A stretch of DNA of 53,176 nucleotides from a bacterium (GTDB lineage Bacteria > UBP6 > UBA1177). Of the stretch, positions 1,496 to 14,885 are shown in pieces. The notes beneath the pieces were generated by a model that had not been told where the DNA came from, made no database searches, and was given only the letters and a program-made list of their open reading frames with translations. The stretch spans positions 1 through 53,176 of the forward strand of contig JAFQZM010000019.1 in the NCBI GenBank assembly GCA_017405875.1, read 5' to 3'. The translations under genes were made by a program, and so were the position numbers. The stretch's first letter is position 1. Every line of letters starts with the position of its first letter.

Positions 1496-2860
1496 ATGGC
1501 AAAAAAACAGATTTTCGGAACAGACGGAATAAGAACGACTGCAAATGTTTATCCGCTCACACCTGAATCGGCGGTAAAAGTCAGTAAAGCGGTGACGCGC
1601 TGGTTTCAGAAGAAAAATCCTGACAAAAAAATCGAAGCCGCGATAGGTACTGACACGCGAATCTCTTCGGAAATGCTGAGTGCGGCGGTTTCAGCGGGAA
1701 TCATGAGCGCTGGCGGCAATGTGACCGACCTCAAAGTGGTCTCGACTCCTCTTGTAAGCGACTTTGTGAGAACAAACAAATGCGATTTCGGCATCGTCAT
1801 TTCGGCAAGCCACAACCCTTTTGATGACAACGGGATAAAAATTTTCAATTCGAAGGGCGAAAAGCTCAACGACTCTCAGGAACTTGAGATCGAAGCGCTG
1901 TTTTTTGATGAAAACGAAGCGCAGAACCCGACAGGAAAAGATATAGGGACTGCAAGAATCGCCGAAAATCCTGAATTCGACTACGTTTCAAGGATTGTAA
2001 AGGCATTTGAGCCGCTGAAAGATTCTGAAATAAAGATCTGCATTGACTGCGCAAACGGCGCAACTGCGAAAATCGCGAAAAAAATATTCTCCGCTTTTCC
2101 CAAAATGGAAAAATTCTTCTTTTTTACAGAGGCTAACGGTGTCAACATCAACGACAACTGCGGCGCGCTTCATCCCGAAAACCTCGCTCCGAAGATACTT
2201 GAACACAACTGTTTCGCAGGTTTTGCCTACGATGGCGACGGCGACAGGCTTATCACGATAGACGAGCTCGGAAGAGTCGTTGACGGAGACAAGATTATCG
2301 GAATAATCGCAAAATATCTCAGTAAAAACGGAAGGTTGCCAAAAAATTCAGTGGCAGTCACCGTTATGAGCAACGCAGGGCTTGAAAAACACCTCGCAAA
2401 CTGCGGGATAAGCCTTGAAAGAACGAATGTCGGCGACAGATACCTCGTCGAAAGGATAAATGAAAAAGGTTTGAGTCTCGCCGGAGAAAACAGCGGACAC
2501 CTCATAATAAAAGAGATAAATCCGACAGGTGACGGCATCGTCGCTTCGCTTATGATCCTCAAAATACTTGCCGAAAGCGGAAGAAAACTCTCGGAACTTG
2601 CAGACGAGATCGAACTTTTCCCGCAGATTCAGGCGAAAGTAAAAATCAAAGGGGAAAAAATTCCCGTCGAAGAAATTCCGGGACTTTGCGAATTTATCAA
2701 ATCGCAGGAAGCACTTCTTGAAGGCGGCAGAATGCTCGTCCGTTACAGCGGAACCGAGCCTGTAATGCGCGTCATGGCTGAAGGACCTGACAAAGTCAAA
2801 GTTCAGAATGCGGTAGACAAAGTAGCTGATTTCGTTATAAATTTTTACGGAGGCAAATAA
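1496..2860 (+). CDS. glmM: Phosphoglucosamine mutase
   Basis: GlmM converts glucosamine-6-phosphate to glucosamine-1-phosphate, the step feeding UDP-GlcNAc for murein and lipopolysaccharide. At 454 residues it has the normal length. The N-terminus reads FGTDGIR. The phosphoserine loop is ISASHNP, with the catalytic Ser at 105. The metal-binding loop DGDGDR is at 247-252, the sugar-binding GENSGH follows, and the phosphate-binding RYSGTEP lies near the C-terminus. This set separates GlmM from most phosphomannomutases, although ManB-like activity cannot be excluded by eye. AAAGGAG precedes the ATG at proper spacing. The stop codon overlaps the next ATG by one base (TAATG), so translation is probably coupled. 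Confidence 0.93.
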   Translation: MAKKQIFGTDGIRTTANVYPLTPESAVKVSKAVTRWFQKKNPDKKIEAAIGTDTRISSEMLSAAVSAGIMSAGGNVTDLKVVSTPLVSDFVRTNKCDFGIVISASHNPFDDNGIKIFNSKGEKLNDSQELEIEALFFDENEAQNPTGKDIGTARIAENPEFDYVSRIVKAFEPLKDSEIKICIDCANGATAKIAKKIFSAFPKMEKFFFFTEANGVNINDNCGALHPENLAPKILEHNCFAGFAYDGDGDRLITIDELGRVVDGDKIIGIIAKYLSKNGRLPKNSVAVTVMSNAGLEKHLANCGISLERTNVGDRYLVERINEKGLSLAGENSGHLIIKEINPTGDGIVASLMILKILAESGRKLSELADEIELFPQIQAKVKIKGEKIPVEEIPGLCEFIKSQEALLEGGRMLVRYSGTEPVMRVMAEGPDKVKVQNAVDKVADFVINFYGGK

Positions 2861-4746
2861 TGAAAAAATTCTCTCTTTTACTTCTCGCGCTGCTTTTATG
2901 CCTAGTATGTTCATGCGGAAGTTCAGGCAGCAAGGAAAAAGATGATTCCGACCAAATTGACGGAACCGATGTTGATACAACGGATGATTCGGACGCTGCC
3001 GACGGCTCAGACACTGACAAAACAGATGATTCCGACAATCAGAAACCCGCATCAGATGATGACAACACTGCAGACGACAGTGATTCTGAGGCGGTCAGCG
3101 GCATCTGCTCGCCGAATCCGTGCGACACCGAAGAAAACCGCGCCGCGCACAAATCAAGATGCATGCCTGAAAACAACGGCACATCATACACCTGCGTCTG
3201 TGATTCATCATACTACTCTTACGGAGATATCTGCTGCCCGGCACATTCATCGGAAAAAGGCAGTAAATGTGAGTGCGACACTTACTACGTTGAGCCTGAA
3301 GATGAACCGGGGAAATGTCTGGCTGCATGCACCGAAAATACGATCGAAGGTCTTAACGGCTACTGCAAAGGAGACTATATATGCCAGCAGGGAACATGCA
3401 TAAAAGACCGCTGCGCTTCTTACACATGCCCCGAAAACAGCACCTGCACCACAAAAAACGACGAAGCATTCTGCCAGTGCGACGATCCGCTTCAGATGAG
3501 CAACGGAAAGTGCTGCCCGAAAAATTCGACGAATGTAAACGGAACCTGCAAATGCAGCGCAGGTTACGAATTGTCGGGAAACGAGTGCGTAATGAGTGCA
3601 AATAATCCGTGCAGGAAAAAACCGTGCAGTCAGGCCAACAATCCGGGACAACCCAACAAAAACACATGTGTTCCGGATAACAGCGAAGCGGGTTACCACT
3701 GCGAGTGCAATACAAGCTACGAGGAAGACTCTGACGGAAAATGCAAAGAAATAGTTTACGATGTCTGCCCGAACAACATGCAGTGTCTCAGAGGCTACTG
3801 CCTTCCGCAGGATCTCAGCAACGAACAGTGCATTAAAGACAGCGACTGCCGTGAATTTGGCGGAAACGCCACATGTTCGGCTCCGAATGCAGCAGGCGGC
3901 GTATGTTCAGGATGCACTGACAACAGCGACTGTCCGGGTAACACTCAGTGCAACGATACTTACGGAACATGTGCTCTGATGTGCGACAGCGACGATGACT
4001 GCCCTTACGGGAAGTGCTATTCAAACGGCTACTGCGGTCAGAAACACTGCTCAACAGACGAAGACTGCTTTAACGGAAGCGTATGCAAGTATTCAACAGG
4101 CGACGGCGACGGAATGTGCCAGAGGGCAACATGTCATGAAACCGAATGCTCGGAAACAAATCCGCACGGAAGCTGCCCCGACGGCAGTGCATGCATAAAC
4201 GGAAGCTGTGTTTCAAGCTGCTCGCCCAATCCGTGCAATGAGACAAACAGAACAACATGCGAAATAAAACTCGGCGTTCCGACCTGCGTCTGTGACGAGG
4301 GAACAGTTGAAAAGGACGGAAAGTGCCAGCCGCAAACCCAGGCATGTCCGACAGGCTTTGTCTGCAAAGGCGGCTACTGCGCAGACACGAGCGATCCGAC
4401 ATTTTTCTGTGCAGAAAATTCCGACTGCGGAAGCTCTATGACCTGCACTTCAGCAAGTCTTCCGTCAGGTCAGTGCAACGGCTGTGCCTACACTTCAGAC
4501 TGTCCCAACGCAAACACAGATGAAGCTGTTACATGCGTTAAAGCAGGAACTTCCGGTTACTGCATGAGAAGCTGCCTCACAAACGAAGAGTGCAGCGAAG
4601 GCATGATCTGCAGAACAAGCGGTTTAGGCAGTTTCTGCGGCAGAAAGGACTGCTCGAAACCGTCCGACTGCCCGGCAAACTACACCTGCAAACCGTCGTC
4701 AGACAGTTCCGAAAGCGGAACATGTTCAAGGAAACCGTGTGAATAA
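2860..4746 (+). CDS. Large Cys-rich EGF-like lipoprotein with acidic linker
   Basis: A signal sequence ends in a lipobox (LVCSC, lipidated Cys19). About 70 residues of Asp/Ser/Thr-rich low-complexity linker follow, with repeats of the type DDSD. The rest of the 628 residues consists of short Cys-rich modules: CSPNPC openings, C-x-C-D closings such as TCVCD and HCECN, and several copies of a module like SDCPGNTQCNDTYGTC. These resemble EGF-like and 'DCPxxxxC' repeats of surface proteins in Myxococcota-like bacteria. A surface role (adhesion or binding) is inferred from this design only. It sits inside a cell-wall operon, one base after glmM and just before mpl. The disulfide-rich fold implies an oxidising periplasm or surface. 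Confidence 0.85.
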   Translation: MKKFSLLLLALLLCLVCSCGSSGSKEKDDSDQIDGTDVDTTDDSDAADGSDTDKTDDSDNQKPASDDDNTADDSDSEAVSGICSPNPCDTEENRAAHKSRCMPENNGTSYTCVCDSSYYSYGDICCPAHSSEKGSKCECDTYYVEPEDEPGKCLAACTENTIEGLNGYCKGDYICQQGTCIKDRCASYTCPENSTCTTKNDEAFCQCDDPLQMSNGKCCPKNSTNVNGTCKCSAGYELSGNECVMSANNPCRKKPCSQANNPGQPNKNTCVPDNSEAGYHCECNTSYEEDSDGKCKEIVYDVCPNNMQCLRGYCLPQDLSNEQCIKDSDCREFGGNATCSAPNAAGGVCSGCTDNSDCPGNTQCNDTYGTCALMCDSDDDCPYGKCYSNGYCGQKHCSTDEDCFNGSVCKYSTGDGDGMCQRATCHETECSETNPHGSCPDGSACINGSCVSSCSPNPCNETNRTTCEIKLGVPTCVCDEGTVEKDGKCQPQTQACPTGFVCKGGYCADTSDPTFFCAENSDCGSSMTCTSASLPSGQCNGCAYTSDCPNANTDEAVTCVKAGTSGYCMRSCLTNEECSEGMICRTSGLGSFCGRKDCSKPSDCPANYTCKPSSDSSESGTCSRKPCE

Positions 4747-6190: not shown

Positions 6191-6967
6191 ATGACGATCA
6201 TTGATTCAATCATTCTGGGTATCCTGCAGGGGCTCACGGAGTTTCTGCCGGTAAGTTCTTCGGGGCATCTCGTTTTTGTGGAAAAACTGCTCGGACACAA
6301 GGATGTGCCGCTTCTTTACGACATTCTGCTGCACGTTGCGTCGCTTCTTGCAGTCTTTATTTTCTTCAGGAATAAGCTGCTAAATCTCACGAAAGAGTGT
6401 CTGACTTTCAAGTACAACAAGTCGCACAAATACGTGATGATGATACTTCTCAGCACGATCGTAACGACTGCGATGCTCGTTGTGACCAAGCCTGTGATGA
6501 AATCGATAAAGGAAGAGCCCGTTTATCTCACGGTCGCTTTCGCATTCACGGCGATACTCCTTCTTATCGCGCAGTCGTTTTTCAAAAAAGCTATCCCAGA
6601 CAAGGAAATTTCATGGAAGGATGCCTTTGTCATCGGATTTTTTCAGGGGATCGCGGTCCTTCCCGGCGTTTCGCGCTCAGGTTCGACGATAACGGGTGCA
6701 CTTTTCAGAAAAATTCCCGCCGCAGATGCGGTCGAATTCTCGTTCATGCTGGCGATCCCCGCTATTTTAGGAGCCCTTCTTCTTGAACTTGTAAAAGGCG
6801 GTTTTGCTTTCATCGACCCGGTTCCTTCGATCGTCGGCTTTATCGCTTCGTTTGTTGCAAGCCTTGCCGCGCTCAAACTTCTCGTTTTCATGATGAAGAA
6901 AACTGTACTTTATCCTTTTGCGATATACCTTTTCATCCTTTCGGCACTTGTTCCTTTTGTGATTTAG
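6191..6967 (+). CDS. uppP: Undecaprenyl-diphosphatase
   Basis: UppP (BacA) is an inner-membrane enzyme that removes a phosphate from undecaprenyl diphosphate, regenerating the lipid carrier for murein and surface-glycan export. Both signature regions are present: GLTEFLPVSSSGHL near the N-terminus and VLPGVSRSGSTI in the second half, containing the catalytic Glu, Ser and Arg residues known for the family. Its 258 residues are almost entirely hydrophobic helices, as expected. The gene begins two bases after the mpl stop, so it is part of the same transcript. Loss or overexpression in other bacteria changes bacitracin sensitivity; nothing here shows a resistance role. Confidence 0.95.
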   Translation: MTIIDSIILGILQGLTEFLPVSSSGHLVFVEKLLGHKDVPLLYDILLHVASLLAVFIFFRNKLLNLTKECLTFKYNKSHKYVMMILLSTIVTTAMLVVTKPVMKSIKEEPVYLTVAFAFTAILLLIAQSFFKKAIPDKEISWKDAFVIGFFQGIAVLPGVSRSGSTITGALFRKIPAADAVEFSFMLAIPAILGALLLELVKGGFAFIDPVPSIVGFIASFVASLAALKLLVFMMKKTVLYPFAIYLFILSALVPFVI

Positions 6968-6979
6968 CGGAGGTTCAAA

Positions 6980-8176
6980 ATGGAATTTTCAGTCGCGATC
7001 TATAACGGAAAAAATGTTCCTTTCGATCTTAACGAAAGGCTGCTCGGACTTACCCTTCTCGAGCGTCAGATCAAAATAGCCGGAGCTTTCGGCGCAAAGG
7101 AAGTCATTGTTGTCAACGAGGAGACGCAGCGCGATTTTTCGGGCAAGTGGCTTTTCGTAAACGGCGCATTCTTCATTCACAAGCTCGCAGTCGAGCAGCA
7201 GTATTTTGAAAGCGATGAAGACCGCTTCGAAAAAGGGGGAATGTTCGGATTTTTTGATGCTGACAAACACAGAGAAGATATCGCCGCATTCCTTAAAAAC
7301 GGCGTTTTTCCGGAAAATATTTCGACATTCACAGGCCCCGGTTACCGTGTCATCGTTGATTCGAAAGAGGCAAAGAAACGTCTTGATTTCGAGCTTTTCG
7401 AAGAGATGCGCAAACCGACGAACGGCCTTGTTTCACGCAGCATAAACATGGTCATGGCGATATTCCTCACAAGGAATCTGTGGATCCCGCTGCGCTTCAC
7501 GCCGAACATGGTGACGTGGTGCTCGATAATAGTCGGCGTAATGTCGGGTTTTGTCGCTTTCAGCGGCTCGCGCCTTGCCATAATTTTAGGCACTCTCTGC
7601 GCGCAGATAGCCTCCGTCATTGACGACTGCGACGGCAAAGTGGCGCGTCTTACCTACCAGACAAGCGATTTCGGACAGTGGCTCGACACCGTTGGAGATT
7701 CCTTCGTGAACACTTCTCTTACGATCGGCTTGGGCTACGGACTTGCGCACTACTACACCGCAAATCCCGTATCATCGGCGGCTATTCAGCCTTACCTTGA
7801 AACATGGCCGATCTGGATCGCGTGGCTCTCAGTCGCGATCAACTGGTACCACAACTTCGTCAGTTATTTCGATGTCATCGTCATCAGAAAAACTACCAAC
7901 ATTTTCTCTTTCACATTCTGGTTCGAAAAGAAGGACAGAGTCACAAAAAGAGTCGATCTCACCGCGCCGATATACGCCAAAATGGATCTTCTCAACTTCC
8001 TGAAATACTTTTCGAGACGCGACACCTACCTGTTTGCATACTTCGTCCTCGCCCTCATCGGACCTGCGGCAATGCTTGTCGGATATCTCATCACCGCCGC
8101 ATTTGTGATCCCGGTATTCTTCCTGACGACGATCCACATCTATTTCGGGATCATCAAAAAGATGAAAAAAGCCTAA
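6980..8176 (+). CDS. CDP-alcohol phosphatidyltransferase, DIPPS-like, degenerate N-terminal nucleotidyltransferase domain
   Basis: The C-terminal membrane half carries the full CDP-alcohol phosphotransferase motif, D215, D218-G-x2-A-R, x8, G, x3, D236, x3, D240. It also has the KPTNGLVSR and RFTPNMVTW sequences seen in di-myo-inositol-phosphate-phosphate and inositol-phospholipid synthases of this family. The first roughly 140 residues resemble a sugar/inositol nucleotidyltransferase (LLGLTLLERQIKIAGAFGAKEVIVV), but the Gly-rich GxGxR nucleotide-binding loop is absent. The enzyme probably transfers a phospho-alcohol from a CDP donor in the membrane; the substrate cannot be read, with inositol phosphate a guess. 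A Shine-Dalgarno (CGGAGG) lies 7 bases upstream. The stop codon lies in the first copy of the 48-bp direct repeat. Confidence 0.85.
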   Translation: MEFSVAIYNGKNVPFDLNERLLGLTLLERQIKIAGAFGAKEVIVVNEETQRDFSGKWLFVNGAFFIHKLAVEQQYFESDEDRFEKGGMFGFFDADKHREDIAAFLKNGVFPENISTFTGPGYRVIVDSKEAKKRLDFELFEEMRKPTNGLVSRSINMVMAIFLTRNLWIPLRFTPNMVTWCSIIVGVMSGFVAFSGSRLAIILGTLCAQIASVIDDCDGKVARLTYQTSDFGQWLDTVGDSFVNTSLTIGLGYGLAHYYTANPVSSAAIQPYLETWPIWIAWLSVAINWYHNFVSYFDVIVIRKTTNIFSFTFWFEKKDRVTKRVDLTAPIYAKMDLLNFLKYFSRRDTYLFAYFVLALIGPAAMLVGYLITAAFVIPVFFLTTIHIYFGIIKKMKKA

Positions 8177-8218
8177 GACTCTTCTTTTCCTCTCAAGAAT
8201 CTGCCGAAAAGGATCATT
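8171..8218 (+). repeat. 48-bp direct repeat, left copy
   Basis: This copy begins GCCTAAGACTCTTCTTTTCC. It matches 10649-10696 at 47 of 48 positions, the single difference being T8200 against C10678. It contains the last codons and stop of the phosphatidyltransferase gene, followed by a duplicate of the 3' end of the MFS transporter gene (RFLRGKEES and stop, read on the minus strand). The bases on either side of the two copies differ. Confidence 0.95.
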
Positions 8219-8301
8219 GTATTTTTCATTGCCAAGAAAAAACTTCTATATTAAAATTACTAAAGAATGTTTTTTTACAACTTGATTTTGCGGGGTTCAA
8301 A

Positions 8302-8688
8302 ATGTTTAAGAAAATCTTTTTTGTTTTTTATGTATTTACTAGTTTGCTTGAAGCGGAATCTCAAGAAGATTATGTGGTTTCACAGCAATATTATGAATTC
8401 AACGAAAATGAACTTATATCTTGTAAAACACAACCGTCTGAAAAGTATGCGGATGAAGAACCTCAGGGAATTGCCCATGCCGGCGATGAGGAAAATGAAC
8501 AAACATGGTTTTTAACTTCACGTAACGAATTGCGAGTTTACGATGGTTTTTTCGAGAGAGAAAACAAAAAAATTCTTTTAAATACACGTCCTCTTTCAAT
8601 GTTAAATTCCGATACTACTTATGTATGGTATTTATACGCAGATCATTTAGGTGATATTGATTTTGACCAAAAAAGACAACTCTTATAG
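8302..8688 (+). CDS. Small hypothetical secreted protein, possibly a truncated gene
   Basis: The ATG at 8302 follows CGGGG at a plausible distance. It opens a 128-residue protein with an N-terminal hydrophobic segment that looks like a signal peptide (MFKKIFFVFYVFTSLL). The mature part is acidic and aromatic, with TWFLTSRNELRVYDG and TTYVWYLYADHLGDIDF, which could be strands of a larger beta domain. The frame stops two bases before the transposase relic starts, so the gene may be the 5' remnant of a longer secreted protein cut by an insertion element. A longer open frame extends upstream from 7804, but that part is out-of-frame shadow over the phosphatidyltransferase gene. No family is recognised. 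Confidence 0.45.
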   Translation: MFKKIFFVFYVFTSLLEAESQEDYVVSQQYYEFNENELISCKTQPSEKYADEEPQGIAHAGDEENEQTWFLTSRNELRVYDGFFERENKKILLNTRPLSMLNSDTTYVWYLYADHLGDIDFDQKRQLL

Positions 8689-8690
8689 TG

Positions 8691-8828
8691 CCGCATTTGA
8701 GAAACGAACTCGATAAATATTTCAGGTTTTACGACTACAAAAGAGGTCATTCGGCTCACGGGTACAAGACTCCGTGGGAGGTTTACAGTGAAAATTCTAC
8801 ATTTTGGAAAACTGGAGCAACGGCATGA
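8691..8828 (+). pseudogene. Transposase relic: C-terminal end of a DDE (rve) transposase
   Basis: In this frame the DNA encodes LDKYFRFYDYKRG followed by HSAHGYKTPWEVY and a stop at 8826-8828. This is the well-known C-terminal signature of IS3/IS481-type integrase-core transposases (usual form YNxxRPHSALGYKTPxEVY). Nothing upstream in the frame resembles the catalytic DDE core, so only about 45 codons remain. It lies inside the repeat-bounded insert and is the clearest sign that transposition shaped this segment. The exact IS family cannot be assigned from so short a piece. Confidence 0.7.
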
Positions 8829-8859
8829 CAACTCATGCTGCGATAAACAACACTTTTTT

Positions 8860-9003
8860 GGAGGATTTTTCTGTCCAGAAATGCTTGACCATTATAAATG
8901 TTCGCAGATAAATTCTGATTACACAAGCGGCACAGCGGTTTGTAATTCAACTTGCAGCGGTTACAACGAAAACAACTGTTCGACAAGTGACGGCTGGTTC
9001 TAA
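8860..9003 (+). pseudogene. Fragment resembling the C-terminus of a Cys-rich surface protein
   Basis: This frame encodes a Cys-rich stretch (KCSQINSDYTSG, then TAVCNSTCSGYNENNC) and ends at a stop just before the Shine-Dalgarno of the next lipoprotein. Its style matches the Cys-rich modules of lipoproteins elsewhere in the window. The open frame extends back to a GTG at 8788 with a GGAGG upstream, but that part lies over the transposase relic in a different frame, so the GTG is probably accidental. It is best read as the tail of a lost lipoprotein gene. Confidence 0.4.
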
Positions 9004-9017
9004 ACGGAGGAGTTGAA

Positions 9018-10628
9018 ATGAAAAAATATTCAATAATTTTAATGATTTTTGTGTTGTTTTTGATTTTTTCCTGCTCTTCAAAAAGCGAATCAAAAAACGA
9101 TCCTGACACAATTCCAGATTCAGACATTGATTCGCAGGATTCAGAAACTCAAAATGATGATGAAGATTCGCAAACTTCTGAAATCGTTGACGATTCAGAA
9201 AGAGATGACGCGGACGACGATAAAACCGATGATTCAGACAGTGACACCGACGAACCGCTTGATGTTGATTATCAAGGTGCGGAAGACTGCCCGAAGCTTT
9301 CCGAAGCCAAATTTCCATATTACAACGATGACAAATCAATCCATTTCTGCCGCAAATGCGATACTCCGACAGTCAAAGATCCGCAGTGTATGGAAAATCT
9401 CTGGAAAGAAGCGGCAGCCAAACTTTATGCTGTTTCACCTGAATCTGAATGTAAAGACGGATATCCTTGTGAAATGTTGGATTTAGTACCAATTACACAG
9501 GCAGAGTGGGATGAGGAATGGTCAGATCCAAAATACCCGAAACTTCCCTATCGTCCTCATGAATGCGATTTGATTCTTGATGCCAATTCTGTCTCAACAA
9601 AATATCTTTGGGCAACTGACGAAACAGCAGGTTCATTCAAACATTTCAACATAAGTGACGGAAAAATCGGAATTAAATTGATGAATTTTTCATCTGAACT
9701 TGATAATCAGGGTTATACTACAAGATCCAAGGTTATGATTTATGATCCTGCTGAAAAAAAATATAAAGCCGTTGCTCCGATGACAGCTGATATGCTTGCC
9801 TATCACAAAGGATGTTTTCTTTATATGGGAAAAGATTTCAGGTCAGGAAAAAGCGGTAAATATCTTTTTTATGCCTGCGAAGATGGTTCAAGAAAAGTTG
9901 TATACCCAGGGAAAATAAACTGGCTTTCATATACTCCGGCACTTAGCGAAAAGTGGGCGATTGCTAATATCCAGGAAGAAGAAGGCGGTTTGAAATATAC
10001 CATGTATGCCAAAGTAGGCGTTTGGAAGTGGACAAAACTGATGGAAGGACTTTCTTACGGACCTCAAATAGTCAATGATAAGGCTGTTTTTTACGATGAT
10101 TATTTCAAGGCGTATTATTGCGATTTATCAAAAAATCCACAAAGCACAGCAGACTGTATTTTAGTGAATGAAACAGAAACCGAAGAAATCAGAACCCCGG
10201 TAATAAACGAAGATGATGAAACAGAAATAATTTATGAATCGTATTTTTCTGAAAAAATGTCAATGAAACGCTTAAAAATCGGTTCTAACGGTAAAAAAGA
10301 ATATTCACAGGTTCTTGATAAGCATGAATCAACTGATGATGTTTGGAAAGGTGGAGGATTTGGGATAAAGAAAGTTGCTCAAGATTTTATTTTTTATAAC
10401 GAATCTTTGTATGGTAATGATGATATTGACGGAAATGCCTGCTTTTACAGCAGAAAATCTAAAAAAACCACATGCATGAAAAAAGTCGAAGGAATGGAAA
10501 AATATTATTTCGGCTTTGATGACTGGGAAGGTAAATGGCTTCTTTACCAATTCCGAGCTGTTGCATTACAAGCTGTCCGCGACCTTGACTGCTACTGCGA
10601 GAAAGAAGGGGTTTGCCCGTTTGAATAA
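9018..10628 (+). CDS. Predicted lipoprotein with acidic linker, function unknown
   Basis: The gene has a clean start (CGGAGGAG upstream of ATG 9018), a signal sequence and a lipobox LIFSC with the lipidated Cys at 19. Roughly 60 residues of Asp/Ser/Glu/Thr-rich linker follow, then a globular domain of about 450 residues. The globular part has spaced aromatic strand-like repeats (for example FYDDYFKAYYCD and KYYFGFDDWEGKWLLY), which would fit a beta-propeller read-out of 'state' blades; this is only an impression. The C-terminus ends with a small Cys pair motif (DCYCEKEGVC). It is the only clearly intact gene in the repeat-bounded insert. The protein is probably anchored in the outer membrane. 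No enzyme family is recognised. Confidence 0.8.
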   Translation: MKKYSIILMIFVLFLIFSCSSKSESKNDPDTIPDSDIDSQDSETQNDDEDSQTSEIVDDSERDDADDDKTDDSDSDTDEPLDVDYQGAEDCPKLSEAKFPYYNDDKSIHFCRKCDTPTVKDPQCMENLWKEAAAKLYAVSPESECKDGYPCEMLDLVPITQAEWDEEWSDPKYPKLPYRPHECDLILDANSVSTKYLWATDETAGSFKHFNISDGKIGIKLMNFSSELDNQGYTTRSKVMIYDPAEKKYKAVAPMTADMLAYHKGCFLYMGKDFRSGKSGKYLFYACEDGSRKVVYPGKINWLSYTPALSEKWAIANIQEEEGGLKYTMYAKVGVWKWTKLMEGLSYGPQIVNDKAVFYDDYFKAYYCDLSKNPQSTADCILVNETETEEIRTPVINEDDETEIIYESYFSEKMSMKRLKIGSNGKKEYSQVLDKHESTDDVWKGGGFGIKKVAQDFIFYNESLYGNDDIDGNACFYSRKSKKTTCMKKVEGMEKYYFGFDDWEGKWLLYQFRAVALQAVRDLDCYCEKEGVCPFE

Positions 10629-10648
10629 ATTTAATTAAGAAATTATCT

Positions 10649-10696
10649 GCCTAAGACTCTTCTTTTCCTCTCAAGAACCTGCCGAAAAGGATCATT
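10649..10696 (+). repeat. 48-bp direct repeat, right copy
   Basis: This copy matches 8171-8218 except for one base. Read on the minus strand, it encodes the genuine final residues of the MFS transporter (ILFGRFLRGKEES) and its stop codon, so this copy sits in its original coding context on the right-hand side. Confidence 0.95.
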
Positions 10697-12231
10697 CCGA
10701 GCGGAGAGATGACGGCGACTGCGCCGACCCAGATCCAGATCATGTAGTGATGCGAAATGTCGCCCACCTGCAAAGTTTTTTCACCGGCTTCGTTGACTAT
10801 CTCAGTTGCCGGCGTGTAGGCTGAAAGAAGCGCTCCCGACATCCATGCAACAAGGGGCTGCGAGATGAATTTGGGAAGAAGCGAAAGGCTGAGGTAACTT
10901 GCCTCCTGCCCTTTCGGCGCGATCTTGGCTGTATATTCCATGAGTCTGGGCGACCAGATTGCCTCGCCAATAGTAAAAAGAACGACGAAGAAGCAAAGAC
11001 CTAAGCATATCGCGATAGTTGAAAGCGACGAGCCGTCGGGAAGAGCGAGCCACTTCTGCCAGATGAGTCTGCCGAGCATCGAATCTGCGATCGGAGCGTA
11101 GAATTCATCGGGAAGGACTACGAAAAATACCGATGCCGCCGAAATCAGAGAGCCGATAGTTATCATTTTGTATGCGCTCCACTTTCTTGTGAGCCATGCG
11201 ATCGTCGGAACGAAGAAAATGACGATAACAGGGTTCAGAACGCCGTAGATGTTTCCGATCTTCGCACCTTCACCGAGAACGCGGATTCCGTATTTCGGGA
11301 AGGTGTAGTGGAAGTGGTAGAAGACGTAGTTTACGCCCAGAAGTATCGCAAGTAACGCCATGAACTTCCAGAAAGCCTTCTGTTTTGCGACATTCACGAA
11401 AATCTTTCCGGCATCGACGAAGGAATTTTTTATCGAGTCAATGATTGAAACAAGCATGTTTCCTTCTTTTTTAGCGCGCTCGTTCTCGATGTGTTTTACA
11501 AGCTCGCCTTCATCGTTGAGGTCGATGTTGTCGCGGATTATCGCAACAAAGAAAAGTGTCGGAATGCTGATTAAGAACGCAACGAGAAGGATGAAGCGGT
11601 AAGTCGAGATCTCGCCTAAAAGCGGGATAGCGATATTTCCGTATTCGCCGTAAACTTCACGGATACCGTCAAAAATAAGTCCGCCCATCGCGAATCCGAC
11701 GTTCATCAAAGTGTAGAACATCGCGAAACCAAGTGCCGAAGTGTCCGATTTCGTGTATCTTTTGAGCGCGACCGAAATGACCGGGCTCATGAAAGCGACC
11801 GAAACCGCCTGCGGGACGAAGCCGAGAAGCGTAACGACCCAGAAATTGGTCGTGAGAAAGAGGAAAAACCTCGAAAATATCGCAAGTATCGTGCCGATAA
11901 GAAGGACTTTCTTGATTCCTACCGCGTCAACGAGCGAGCCTACTCCGAAAATAAGGAGCGTATAGGCCAGATTCCACGTTCCCATGTAGTTTCCGGCTGC
12001 AACATCGCTTAAACCGAGATCGCTCGAAAGGAAAAGCGTGAGCGTCATCAGCATGACCGAATAAGCTGTGTATTCGATTATCTGCGAGATCGAAACGAAC
12101 CAGATCTCGCGCGGCGAAGTCTTGAGACCGCGCTTGTAGTTGTAGACGATGTAGATGAAATAAACGCAGGCCGCAGCCGCAACGGAATAAAGCAGATAAG
12201 TTATCCACTCAGGGAATTCGATATAGGACAT
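10651..12231 (-). CDS. MFS transporter
   Basis: The 526-residue protein is dominated by hydrophobic helices, with a charged central loop around residues 235-270, as in major facilitator superfamily carriers. An MFS-like motif lies near the second and third helices (VGSLVDAVGIKKVLLIG, a relative of G-x3-D-x2-G-R/K). An extra N-terminal helix precedes the core. The substrate is not readable; the broad fold is closest to oligopeptide or sugar-phosphate type carriers, without commitment. GGAGG precedes the ATG. It lies 51 bases after the GAPDH stop on the same strand and may share its promoter. Its last codons form the right copy of the 48-bp repeat. Confidence 0.8.
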   Translation of the reverse strand: MSYIEFPEWITYLLYSVAAAACVYFIYIVYNYKRGLKTSPREIWFVSISQIIEYTAYSVMLMTLTLFLSSDLGLSDVAAGNYMGTWNLAYTLLIFGVGSLVDAVGIKKVLLIGTILAIFSRFFLFLTTNFWVVTLLGFVPQAVSVAFMSPVISVALKRYTKSDTSALGFAMFYTLMNVGFAMGGLIFDGIREVYGEYGNIAIPLLGEISTYRFILLVAFLISIPTLFFVAIIRDNIDLNDEGELVKHIENERAKKEGNMLVSIIDSIKNSFVDAGKIFVNVAKQKAFWKFMALLAILLGVNYVFYHFHYTFPKYGIRVLGEGAKIGNIYGVLNPVIVIFFVPTIAWLTRKWSAYKMITIGSLISAASVFFVVLPDEFYAPIADSMLGRLIWQKWLALPDGSSLSTIAICLGLCFFVVLFTIGEAIWSPRLMEYTAKIAPKGQEASYLSLSLLPKFISQPLVAWMSGALLSAYTPATEIVNEAGEKTLQVGDISHHYMIWIWVGAVAVISPLGMILFGRFLRGKEES

Positions 12232-12282: not shown

Positions 12283-13497
12283 CTATGCAATGGCTTTTGA
12301 AACGTAGATCGCAAGTTTGGTGAGGCAGTTTACGTAGCTTCCGAGCTCGTTGTCGTACCAGCCGAAAATCTTCGCGTGGGTAACGGGAACGTTAGACAAC
12401 GGCGGAATATCGACGAAACCGGTTCTTGTGTGGGTGTCGTTGCCTTCGATCACGCATGCAGCCATCTGTCCTTTGAGGTCGCTCGAAACATTCTGTCTTT
12501 CCGAAAGGTAAAGCAGATCTTTCTGCATTCCCGCAGCAGCTTCGCGGTAAACGTTGTTTATGAAATCGCGGTTGATCTTCGGGAAACCGTCCTTGTCAAG
12601 CGGCGTGTGGAAAGTGAGGTTGAGGTTGATAAGAGAAACCGTCTGAACAGGAACACGGACCGAATCAGCCATGAAACCGATGTTTTTCATAACCGGAAGA
12701 ATGTATTCGAGAGCCTTTGCGGCGCCTGTCGTCGAAAGGATGATGTTGTAACCTGCAGCTCTGTTCTTGCGCAGATCACTCGTTCCGCTCTTTGGAACAG
12801 CGTCGAGAACATTCTGCGAATTGGTCATCGAATGTATCGTCGACATGCTTGCGGTAAGAATTGCCGAAGTCTCCTCGTGGTCCAAAAGAGGTTTCATCAT
12901 GTGTGCAAGCGCCGTCGTCGTGCAGGATGCAGCCGAAATTATGTGGTGGTTCATCGGATCAAAATTTCTGTGGTTGACGCCGTAAACCATCATAACTGCG
13001 TCTTCGGGAAGTGTTTTCGATTTCCCTTTGAGTTTGAAGGGAGCCGAGAGTATTACTTTTCTCGCGCCGCCTGCAATGTGACCTCTGAGAGTGCCGTTAG
13101 CCGAGGATTCATCAGTCGGATCAACGAATTTTCCTGTCGTGTCGATAACGACTCTCGCACCTTCCTGGCCCCACGGAATCTTTTCCGGGTTTCTTTCGCT
13201 TCTCAAAAATTTGACTTTTTTGCCGTAGAAAGTGACTTCGCCGTTTACTTCGTCGGTTATCTCGACCGCCGGTTCTTTTCCGCTGCCGAAACCGAAAAGG
13301 AAATTGTGAAGAGTGCCGTAAGTCGAATCGTAAATCGCATAATCGACAAGATCGACAAGCGATTTGCCGACTTCACGCCCGAGGTTGATGACTATTCTGT
13401 CAAAATCATCCTTCAGAAGCATGTTCCAGAGAGTAAGTTTTCCGATTCTTCCGAATCCGTTGATGCCGATTGTAGCCTTGCAGTTGATGTCAATCAT
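12283..13497 (-). CDS. gap: Glyceraldehyde-3-phosphate dehydrogenase, divergent long form
   Basis: GAPDH oxidises glyceraldehyde-3-phosphate to 1,3-bisphosphoglycerate with NAD(P). The NAD-binding loop INGFGRIG is at residues 11-18. The active-site block reads SAASCTTTALA with the catalytic Cys at 192, and the catalytic His is in STIHSMTNSQ (His222). WYDNELGSYVN, the conserved C-terminal block, is present. The protein is 404 residues, about 70 longer than the usual 335, and the almost invariant SCTTN is SCTTT. This places it in a divergent branch whose coenzyme or direction may differ. AGGAGG lies before the ATG. A good divergent promoter lies upstream. Confidence 0.9.
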   Translation of the reverse strand: MIDINCKATIGINGFGRIGKLTLWNMLLKDDFDRIVINLGREVGKSLVDLVDYAIYDSTYGTLHNFLFGFGSGKEPAVEITDEVNGEVTFYGKKVKFLRSERNPEKIPWGQEGARVVIDTTGKFVDPTDESSANGTLRGHIAGGARKVILSAPFKLKGKSKTLPEDAVMMVYGVNHRNFDPMNHHIISAASCTTTALAHMMKPLLDHEETSAILTASMSTIHSMTNSQNVLDAVPKSGTSDLRKNRAAGYNIILSTTGAAKALEYILPVMKNIGFMADSVRVPVQTVSLINLNLTFHTPLDKDGFPKINRDFINNVYREAAAGMQKDLLYLSERQNVSSDLKGQMAACVIEGNDTHTRTGFVDIPPLSNVPVTHAKIFGWYDNELGSYVNCLTKLAIYVSKAIA

Positions 13498-13629: not shown

Positions 13630-13664
13630 CAAAAGGTTTATGATTAGTTTTTTTGGAGAATTCA

Positions 13665-14885
13665 ATGAAAAAACTTTTATTTGCTGCGTTTATTGTTTTG
13701 GCAATGATTTTTACCGTTTCATGTTCCGAAGAAGATATTGCAGATGCGCTCGGCGGTTCCTGCCAGAATGAAGGCGCGGAAACCTGTTCCGCAGACGGAG
13801 CACAGATCCTTATTTGCCGCGATTATAAATGGGAGACGGAAAAAAGCTGCAACCTCAATTTCGGTCAGTATTGCAGAAAAACGGCAAATGGTTCTTACAG
13901 CTGTACCGACAGCGGAAACACCACCACGGAACCCACAAATCCGACTAATGACGACACCACCGATCCGACTGACACGGAATCGAACGACAACGAGCCGACT
14001 GAACCGGAAACAAACGACAACGATCAAACCACCGATACGGAACCGGTTGACGACACAGATACTGAAACTGAAAACGATGATGACACAGATACAGAACAGG
14101 CAGATACCGAACCTGTCGTTAAAGATTTGGAAACATGCAGAGATATTTTTCAATGTCAGAAAAACTGCGATTCTATAGATTGCAACACTGAATGTTACAA
14201 TAGAGGAGTAACAGAAGCACAGAACGATTTTTATGAACGAAACCAGAAATGTCCGACTTATACTGAAATTGATGATCTGAAACACTGTCAGCAACTTTAT
14301 ATAAAATGCGGCATACCTGGTGATGAAAGTTATGGAGCACCTTATGGACATGCTGTGATAACCGGCTCTTTTCCTCACATTCACGAAGCAGGAATAAGTT
14401 CTTTTTCTGTAGGCACTTTCATTAGTACTTTCGTAAACGGAAATTTCGGCTCAAACGGCAATATTCCTGATCCTACAGCAACAAGTAATGAATCTTTGTC
14501 TGTTGCTCAACTTAATACTGCAGGAAATCTTATTATTCTCCGCCAGGGATACACTACCGAAAAAACACCATACGTTACATTTATAATTGACGCTCACGCT
14601 CCAGGAACTTATTCAGTAGGTCTTAACAACAAGGACAATGTCCAAATGATTGTTTCCGAAAACACTGAAAACGAAGCCGATGAGTGTGACCATGCTTTCG
14701 GATACGGATATGTTGAACTTTCAGGCACTGGACTTACAGAAACCTACTCAACCGGCGCCAATACAATCAACATACAGGGTGAAGTTGACCTTTACAGCTA
14801 CAAAAACGCTCCCATGTATGTCGGACAAACATCAAACAACGGTGACATTACGACTGACAAGCTTGTCGCATGCCCGCTTAACTAA
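13665..14885 (+). CDS. Lipoprotein with Thr/Asp linker and Cys-rich modules
   Basis: The ATG at 13665 is preferred because GGAGAA sits five bases upstream; a TTG at 13653 would fall before it. The lipobox is FTVSC. A Cys module follows (ETCSADG, ILICRDYKW, KSCNL, QYCRK), of the 'C-W-C-C' kind common in lipoproteins of Myxococcota-like bacteria. Next come about 75 residues of Thr/Asp/Glu/Pro linker, then a second Cys module (CRDIFQCQKNC, CNTECYNRG), and a C-terminal domain of about 200 residues rich in Gly, Thr and Asn that looks like beta structure. A surface or outer-membrane location is likely. Function is unknown. Confidence 0.85.
   Translation: MKKLLFAAFIVLAMIFTVSCSEEDIADALGGSCQNEGAETCSADGAQILICRDYKWETEKSCNLNFGQYCRKTANGSYSCTDSGNTTTEPTNPTNDDTTDPTDTESNDNEPTEPETNDNDQTTDTEPVDDTDTETENDDDTDTEQADTEPVVKDLETCRDIFQCQKNCDSIDCNTECYNRGVTEAQNDFYERNQKCPTYTEIDDLKHCQQLYIKCGIPGDESYGAPYGHAVITGSFPHIHEAGISSFSVGTFISTFVNGNFGSNGNIPDPTATSNESLSVAQLNTAGNLIILRQGYTTEKTPYVTFIIDAHAPGTYSVGLNNKDNVQMIVSENTENEADECDHAFGYGYVELSGTGLTETYSTGANTINIQGEVDLYSYKNAPMYVGQTSNNGDITTDKLVACPLN

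Follow-up and report, generated by a model that had tools for sequence, protein, structure and literature searches.

How did the same 48 bp come to stand on both sides of a lipoprotein gene cassette? The question is raised by a stretch of 53,176 nucleotides from a rumen bacterium of the candidate phylum UBP6 (contig JAFQZM010000019.1 of assembly GCA_017405875.1), hereafter the window. A preliminary description had reported a match between positions 8171-8218 and 10649-10696, and this was borne out, with 47 of the 48 bases identical. The pair is the top direct repeat of the window (self-BLAST E = 4e-16), no chance match with three or fewer mismatches appeared in 100 shuffles, and no third copy exists in the 2.51-Mb assembly. 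Our results suggest that the repeat, in which the end of an MFS transporter gene is duplicated, is probably the scar of a one-sided homologous integration of foreign DNA, closed on its other side by an illegitimate joint.

The repeat is a duplicated gene end

The MFS transporter gene ends in the right copy, and this end is kept at the gene in nearly every relative; the MFS gene is therefore the true owner of the repeat. The left copy is a truncated MFS tail, consisting of the last 14 codons and the stop, in frame on the minus strand and adjoining a gene that we call gene A. Indeed, the left copy begins within the stop of gene A, so that the stops of the tail copy and of gene A overlap. Both copies translate to MILFGRFLRGKEES followed by the stop, and their sole mismatch is synonymous, which argues that the duplicated piece is a gene tail and not an arbitrary target sequence. 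At the mismatch, the full MFS gene carries the base of the sister species (G006), and the left copy that of most other relatives. The preliminary description had the repeat span the 3′ ends of two convergent genes; it does touch the gene A stop, but only the MFS end is duplicated and the end of gene A is not. The ‘GC’ preceding CTAA is common to gene A and the repeat, probably by chance, while the last repeat bases, ATT, may represent microhomology at the joint. The features needed to follow the locus are given below.

6191..6967, plus strand: uppP/bacA (BacA, PF02673; Pfam BacA E=1.8e-68), conserved left border of the variable region; adjoins the MFS gene or the variable region in most relatives
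6980..8176, plus strand: gene A, CDP-alcohol phosphatidyltransferase-like (PF01066), accessory; absent here in G007, G008 and G012, at another locus in G012
8171..8218, plus strand: left repeat copy, truncated MFS 3′ tail (47/48 match; in frame on the minus strand)
8215..8222, no strand: putative illegitimate joint between MFS tail and cassette, with ATT possibly as microhomology (from comparison with the MFS gene and the cassette start in G010)
10649..10696, plus strand: right repeat copy, authentic MFS 3′ end (from its conservation at the MFS gene in relatives)
10651..12231, minus strand: MFS transporter gene (PF07690), conserved right border of the variable region (Pfam; synteny)
12283..13497, minus strand: glyceraldehyde-3-phosphate dehydrogenase (GAPDH) gene, conserved MFS neighbour (Pfam Gp_dh_N/C; synteny)

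The two junctions differ. At the right one the complete MFS gene runs on into the cassette, whereas at the left one the MFS sequence ends after 48 bp and is followed by unrelated DNA. No inverted repeats were found at the insert ends, no recombinase or integrase gene was seen in 8219-10648, and single-stranded folding gave no hairpin in the repeat (z = +0.9). A conserved regulatory element found elsewhere, which the preliminary description had named as a finding that would overturn its proposal, or an attachment (att) site was rejected on the grounds that the genome holds two copies only and that folding revealed no structure.

The uppP-MFS interval in related genomes

Relatives were found through the MFS gene among UBP6 and other rumen assemblies. 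In these, uppP on one side and the MFS-GAPDH pair on the other are conserved neighbours, and the intervening content differs, with at least six distinct contents across the relatives read. There are no genes between uppP and MFS in G007, G008 and G012, where the stops lie 6-15 bp apart and UppP thus stands directly against MFS. The closest species, G006, has gene A alone, with 126 bp of REP-like (repetitive extragenic palindrome-like) DNA. Gene A accompanied by two other lipoprotein genes occupies the interval in G001, G009, G013 and G004, with additional genes in G014, and about 12 kb of other genes lie there in G003. The search for an empty site proposed in the preliminary description was thus successful, since the gene A-MFS site without cassette in G006 agrees with its claim of an insertion between these two genes.

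The interval appears to behave as an exchange hotspot and resembles a minimal mobile element, in that its content varies without mobility genes, the only trace of one being a dead insertion sequence (IS) fragment in the insert of the window. As in the minimal mobile elements of Neisseria, varying accessory genes stand between the same conserved genes and would be exchanged through flanking homology. The Neisseria elements are exchanged cleanly by double homologous recombination; in contrast, the UBP6 locus retains the scars of one-sided events as well as stacked alleles.

Stacking is apparent in G010, an independent assembly from reindeer, in which the order is uppP, LP744, LPb, MFS′ (104 bp) joined to UppP′ (36 bp), gene A, MFS″ (about 30 bp), the cassette and MFS. 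The joint between MFS tail and cassette again follows gene A, and the lipoprotein gene is 79% identical to that of the window. The most telling piece is the 36-bp UppP tail, as it shows a second allele of the locus, which starts from the uppP end, fused with a 104-bp piece of the first allele's MFS tail. An MFS′-UppP′ joint of this kind would be left by a fragment that covers the region, is circularised or has its ends joined, and enters MFS by homology. The window appears to parallel this arrangement, with gene A and the MFS tail as allele one and the operon and MFS as allele two. Microhomology may amount to about 1 bp at the G010 MFS′-UppP′ joint and to ATT in the window.

Ends and divergence of the copies

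Copies of 3′ tails reach outward to the stop codon of the host gene and are in frame where readable, while their inner ends vary even at one gene: about 30, 48, 71 and 104 bp for MFS, and about 26, 42 and 61 bp for a gltD-like gene described below. A fixed outer edge and a varying inner edge are expected if the homology of the alleles stops at the outer edge and the inner edge is a random joint. In addition, the C-termini of copy and gene differ as they do between alleles (KDES/KEES, LFE/LFEE, GKQIL/GRRIVG), and several pairs of copies are 8-13% apart, mostly at silent sites. When seven pairs were pooled, 25 synonymous and 9 nonsynonymous differences were counted, where 76% nonsynonymous would be expected under neutrality (P about 1e-9), a signal that comes mostly from three of the seven pairs (G010, amidohydrolase and L213). 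This bias argues that the diverged copies separated as working gene parts in different lineages and were joined afterwards. To read the repeat as the target-site duplication of one insertion is not supported, in view of the outer ends at stop codons, the variable inner ends and this divergence elsewhere.

Recurrence of duplicated gene ends and their cargo

The scan for similar structures covered lipoprotein neighbourhoods and control stretches. In 300 kb of the genome of the window around lipoprotein genes, two further clear cases were found. On contig C27, a 42-bp copy of the tail of a gltD-like gene lies across a lipoprotein gene, and on contig C9, 198 bp from the 5′ end of a histidine kinase gene are repeated beyond an ATPase/PD-(D/E)XK gene and a lipoprotein gene. 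The preliminary description had proposed a search for other bracketed lipoprotein genes, and these two cases answer it, although the cargo is often of another kind, such as defence-type genes or ATPases. Indeed, at the gltD site, tail copies of about 26 bp (G006) and about 61 bp (G002) lie across DUF4143 ATPases, and none was found there in G007 and G004. A scan of 410 kb, mostly off lipoprotein genes, revealed an AbiEi/AbiEii pair bracketed by an amidohydrolase tail (100 bp, 92%), and 200 kb of G007 contributed two more tails, with a DUF4143 ATPase and an Abi_2 gene as the bracketed cargo. The scar is not tied to lipoproteins, because AbiE, Abi_2 and DUF4143 ATPase cargo shows the same anatomy; lipoprotein-specific mobility was rejected on these non-lipoprotein control stretches and on G007. 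Two genomes of the genus contain about one in-frame gene-tail copy per 150 kb, and none was found in 193 kb of unrelated genomes; these counts are small and no enrichment is claimed. Repeat matches in L200 and L123 resemble promoter fragments and tandem paralogs.

Tail fragments also move between loci. A 71-bp MFS tail stands at an unrelated locus of G005, and in G009, G001 and G013 pieces of the gltD tail are found at foreign loci beside lipoprotein genes, two of these pieces having an internal deletion joint in common. The segment had been proposed to illustrate a route by which lipoprotein genes move between sites; this holds in so far as the pattern marks entry and movement between loci, as the gltD tails at unrelated loci do, but the route is not specific to lipoproteins.

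At the gltD site, the G006 gene (L178:7568-8737) has 88% identity to every relative, whereas its neighbours match the genome of the window at 95%; as an outlier, it was therefore probably imported together with the adjacent DUF4143 ATPase. A foreign origin of the gltD gene in the genome of the window was not supported, the outlier being that of G006.

Composite scraps were also noted. In G009, gltD-like pieces 2-45, 423-483 and 897-963 are fused beside lipoprotein genes (L170:4042-4203 and L171:5151-5242), and both scraps have the joint of 45 to 423 in common. At L125:5450-5549, two uvrB pieces are fused, again beside a lipoprotein gene.

Proposed one-sided integration and its alternatives

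The anatomy, the empty sites, the nested allele joint in G010, the recurrence at other genes and the silent-site divergence in diverged cases are direct observations, from which we infer the path of the event in the window, its exact pathway and the mode by which DNA entered the cell. An incoming fragment from a relative would have carried the lipoprotein operon beside an MFS 3′ end. On one side it would have recombined homologously with the resident MFS gene, and on the other, without homology, an illegitimate joint would have formed 48 bp into the resident MFS tail. In an equivalent path, the fragment would have been circularised, 48 bp of its MFS end being joined to the promoter end of the operon, and would then have entered by a single crossover. 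By both paths, the resident MFS tail would stay with gene A, and beyond the cargo there would be a complete MFS gene. An IS insertion and a deletion would have ruined the first operon gene, while the lipoprotein gene would have remained functional.

Several observations weigh against this reading. The copies in the window differ by one synonymous change only, which alone is no proof of two origins, and a recent intrachromosomal duplication or later gene conversion fits this pair as well; since it is too similar for the silent-site argument, the inference there rests on the anatomy and the parallel cases. The MFS gene of the window is 92% identical to that of the sister species G006, in line with its neighbours, and is thus not unusually foreign; its recent import was not supported, its identity to relatives being ordinary. 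The presumed donor arrangement, a simple succession of uppP, operon and MFS, was found in no genome, and G010 has the same cassette with a different MFS-tail length, which bears on the age and the number of the events. The ComEC and DprA genes present in nearly all genomes of the genus are compatible with DNA uptake, but they are widespread genes and no demonstration of competence. Finally, classical homology-facilitated illegitimate recombination (HFIR) yields deletions and not duplications (PMC3240628).

The explanation that ranks next, though an unlikely one, is a tandem duplication or merodiploid, in which MFS was first doubled in full by unequal crossover (e.g., between sister chromosomes that differed in gene content) and the first copy was later deleted except for its tail. 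It would lead to the same end product, the G010 MFS′-UppP′ joint resembles a deletion joint within a repeated locus, and transformation-induced merodiploids are documented in pneumococcus (PMC3784515). However, an extra step is required at every instance, and the silent-site divergence contradicts a purely intrachromosomal origin, though not a version with an imported second allele. It is rather improbable that the operon, of which remains are left, integrated site-specifically at the MFS 3′ end through a 48-bp att core, restoring the gene end and leaving the displaced tail on the far side. The succession of gene, cargo and displaced tail is the classic attL/attR picture of islands in gene 3′ ends, and it recurs with compact cargo (AbiE, Abi_2, DUF4143 ATPase); yet the insert has no integrase gene and the repeat no hairpin (z = +0.9), repeat length is not constant at one gene between relatives, the core occurs nowhere else in the genome, the sequences at different host genes are unrelated, and several pairs are 8-13% apart with a silent-site bias. 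We also give a low probability to an undescribed cassette route specific to the genus, possibly with its own enzymes, which would target the 3′ ends of housekeeping genes for the insertion of compact cargo and restore the gene end in the process. Its cargo, in single genes or operons, would be Abi_2, AbiE, DUF4143 ATPases and beta-propeller lipoproteins, and the tail copies would then be the footprint of a mobile system and not of random one-sided recombination.

A long target-site duplication, in which a 48-nt staggered break at the gene A/MFS boundary captured DNA and was filled in, is very unlikely. The near identity of the copies in the window (47/48) speaks for it, but copies reaching the stop codon in all examined 3′-end cases would then be a coincidence, and it is at odds with the silent-biased diverged copies elsewhere and with the G010 joint of two gene tails. 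Moreover, a duplication left by a transposon is difficult to reconcile with a length of 48 bp that varies between relatives, the lack of terminal inverted repeats and an IS remnant that is internal. We see hardly any chance that the assembler fused two strains across a common MFS tail: the assembly is fragmented (47 contigs) and the repeat is about of k-mer length, but the joint between MFS tail and cassette is also present, again after gene A, in the independent G010 reindeer assembly, and other independent assemblies contain analogous structures.

Comparison with known systems

HFIR relies on homology for one end of the foreign DNA, while the other end is joined illegitimately (PMC3240628). 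One-sided integration in the window would be similar to HFIR in S. pneumoniae, A. baylyi and P. stutzeri, and to single crossovers in E. coli, in its homology at one end, its illegitimate other end and the position of foreign DNA beside a conserved gene. Classical HFIR replaces resident DNA by combining insertion with deletion, whereas the window keeps both the MFS tail and gene A, the product being a duplication. The single-crossover variant of E. coli also duplicates part of the homologous end: most products selected for LacZ loss had such partial duplications, of 109-950 bp in the 14 that were sequenced, which were attributed to linear DNA being partly degraded, religated and integrated by single crossover (PMC3240628). 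These systems were studied in transformants, whereas the UBP6 events are read from genomes of an uncultured phylum. HFIR has also been invoked to explain stacked immunity genes in Vibrio (PMC5361080) and, more broadly, small variable segments (PMC2884548), the latter being doubted later by the E. coli authors (PMC3240628).

The displacement of type VI secretion effector-immunity genes in Vibrio cholerae (PMC5361080) is alike in its HFIR-like insertion beside an anchor and in the stackable remnants of the displaced allele. In contrast, whole immunity genes are kept there and thought useful, whereas the UBP6 remnants are gene ends of 30-200 bp without likely function. Islands inserted by tyrosine recombinases in gene 3′ ends share the intact gene, the cargo and the displaced 3′ fragment as direct repeat, but in the UBP6 cases there is no recombinase and no fixed core, and many unrelated genes are targeted.

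Altogether, this is a known recombination outcome, well preserved, and it is more interesting through its recurrence in one uncultured genus and the variety of its cargo. Under one-sided integration, duplicated gene tails would be a readable footprint of DNA import in an uncultured rumen phylum, telling which accessory genes arrived, which side provided the homology and how the alleles of a hotspot were stacked. A systematic count of in-frame tail copies would gauge the natural impact of HFIR-type events, usually studied only in the laboratory.

Contents of the insert

The insert has a G+C content of 36.7%, compared to 49% in the flanking genes. As described initially, it contains an intact lipoprotein gene and debris, which we identified as the 5′ and 3′ ends of a large secreted-protein gene with an rve_3 remnant between them:

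8219..8686, plus strand: promoter region and 5′ part (about 128 codons) of the disrupted large secreted-protein gene (from position, a signal-peptide-like start and the in-frame reading beginning MFKKIFFVFYVF)
8687..8896, plus strand: 3′-end remnant of an IS transposase (rve_3), 210 bp, with 86% identity to IS copies in C29 of the same genome, G012 and G003 (Pfam rve_3 on a homologous copy)
8908..9006, plus strand: 3′ end of the large secreted-protein gene, ending in YTSGTAVCNSTCSGYNENNCSTSDGWF and the stop (75-78% DNA match)
9018..10628, plus strand: intact lipoprotein gene of 536 residues (open reading frame; lipobox FSC, Asp-rich linker, predicted beta-propeller)

The start at 8219..8686 resembles the gene of 1126-1440 residues that stands ahead of lipoprotein paralogs in L100, L101 and L102, although no homology of this N-terminal part itself was detected. 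The DNA match of 8908..9006 extends into lipoprotein paralogs at C18 of the same genome and at contig C42 of G002. A related operon order, in which a large secreted protein (1126-1440 residues) is followed by 1-3 lipoprotein paralogs, was found at C18, in G002 and in G008. The insert thus appears to be the wreck of a two-gene lipoprotein operon with one gene intact; the large gene is mostly gone, and the 210-bp rve_3 fragment sits inside its remains.

No Pfam family matched the 536-residue lipoprotein. Its AlphaFold2 model (mean predicted local distance difference test, pLDDT, 78.6) gave Foldseek matches to beta-propellers (E about 1e-7), and we predict a beta-propeller fold with fair confidence. 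The ratio of nonsynonymous to synonymous substitution rates (dN/dS) against the G008 ortholog was 0.12, and the gene is under purifying selection. Relatives of this lipoprotein are present in 15/15 genomes of the genus, and the genome of the window itself contains 42 matching stretches, about five of them near full length. The C18 lipoprotein was discarded as direct source, since its protein identity is only 76% and thus not recent. Note that the window holds three lipoprotein genes with acidic linkers and without Pfam match (2860-4746, 9018-10628 and 13653-14885).

Dispersed elements and paired repeats

A 47-bp repeat in L137 was set aside as a gene-tail case, being part of an element dispersed throughout the genus (L137:1657-1703 and 2613-2768; L182, L183, L184, L185 and L186). 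This element consists of about 100 bp of AT-rich sequence followed by a 55-bp conserved core, TGTGTCCGCAACGCCGATTAGCGCACGGTTTCACAAAACAAGGGGTT, and in many genomes of the genus it stands between accessory genes (ORF6N, RhuM, KilA-N and others) that form arrays with a spacing of roughly 1 kb. It was likened to gene cassettes with a recombination site, although by eye it does not fit the canonical integron attC boxes. In one instance, a KilA-N gene lies between two element cores, beside a lipoprotein gene. In addition, paired short repeats (e.g., AAATTACAGCTGAGCGCAAAAT or GACTTTACGC) were observed upstream of DUF4143 ATPase genes (L178:7400-7567, L212:17123-17310 and L173:5363-5530), where they may be operators.

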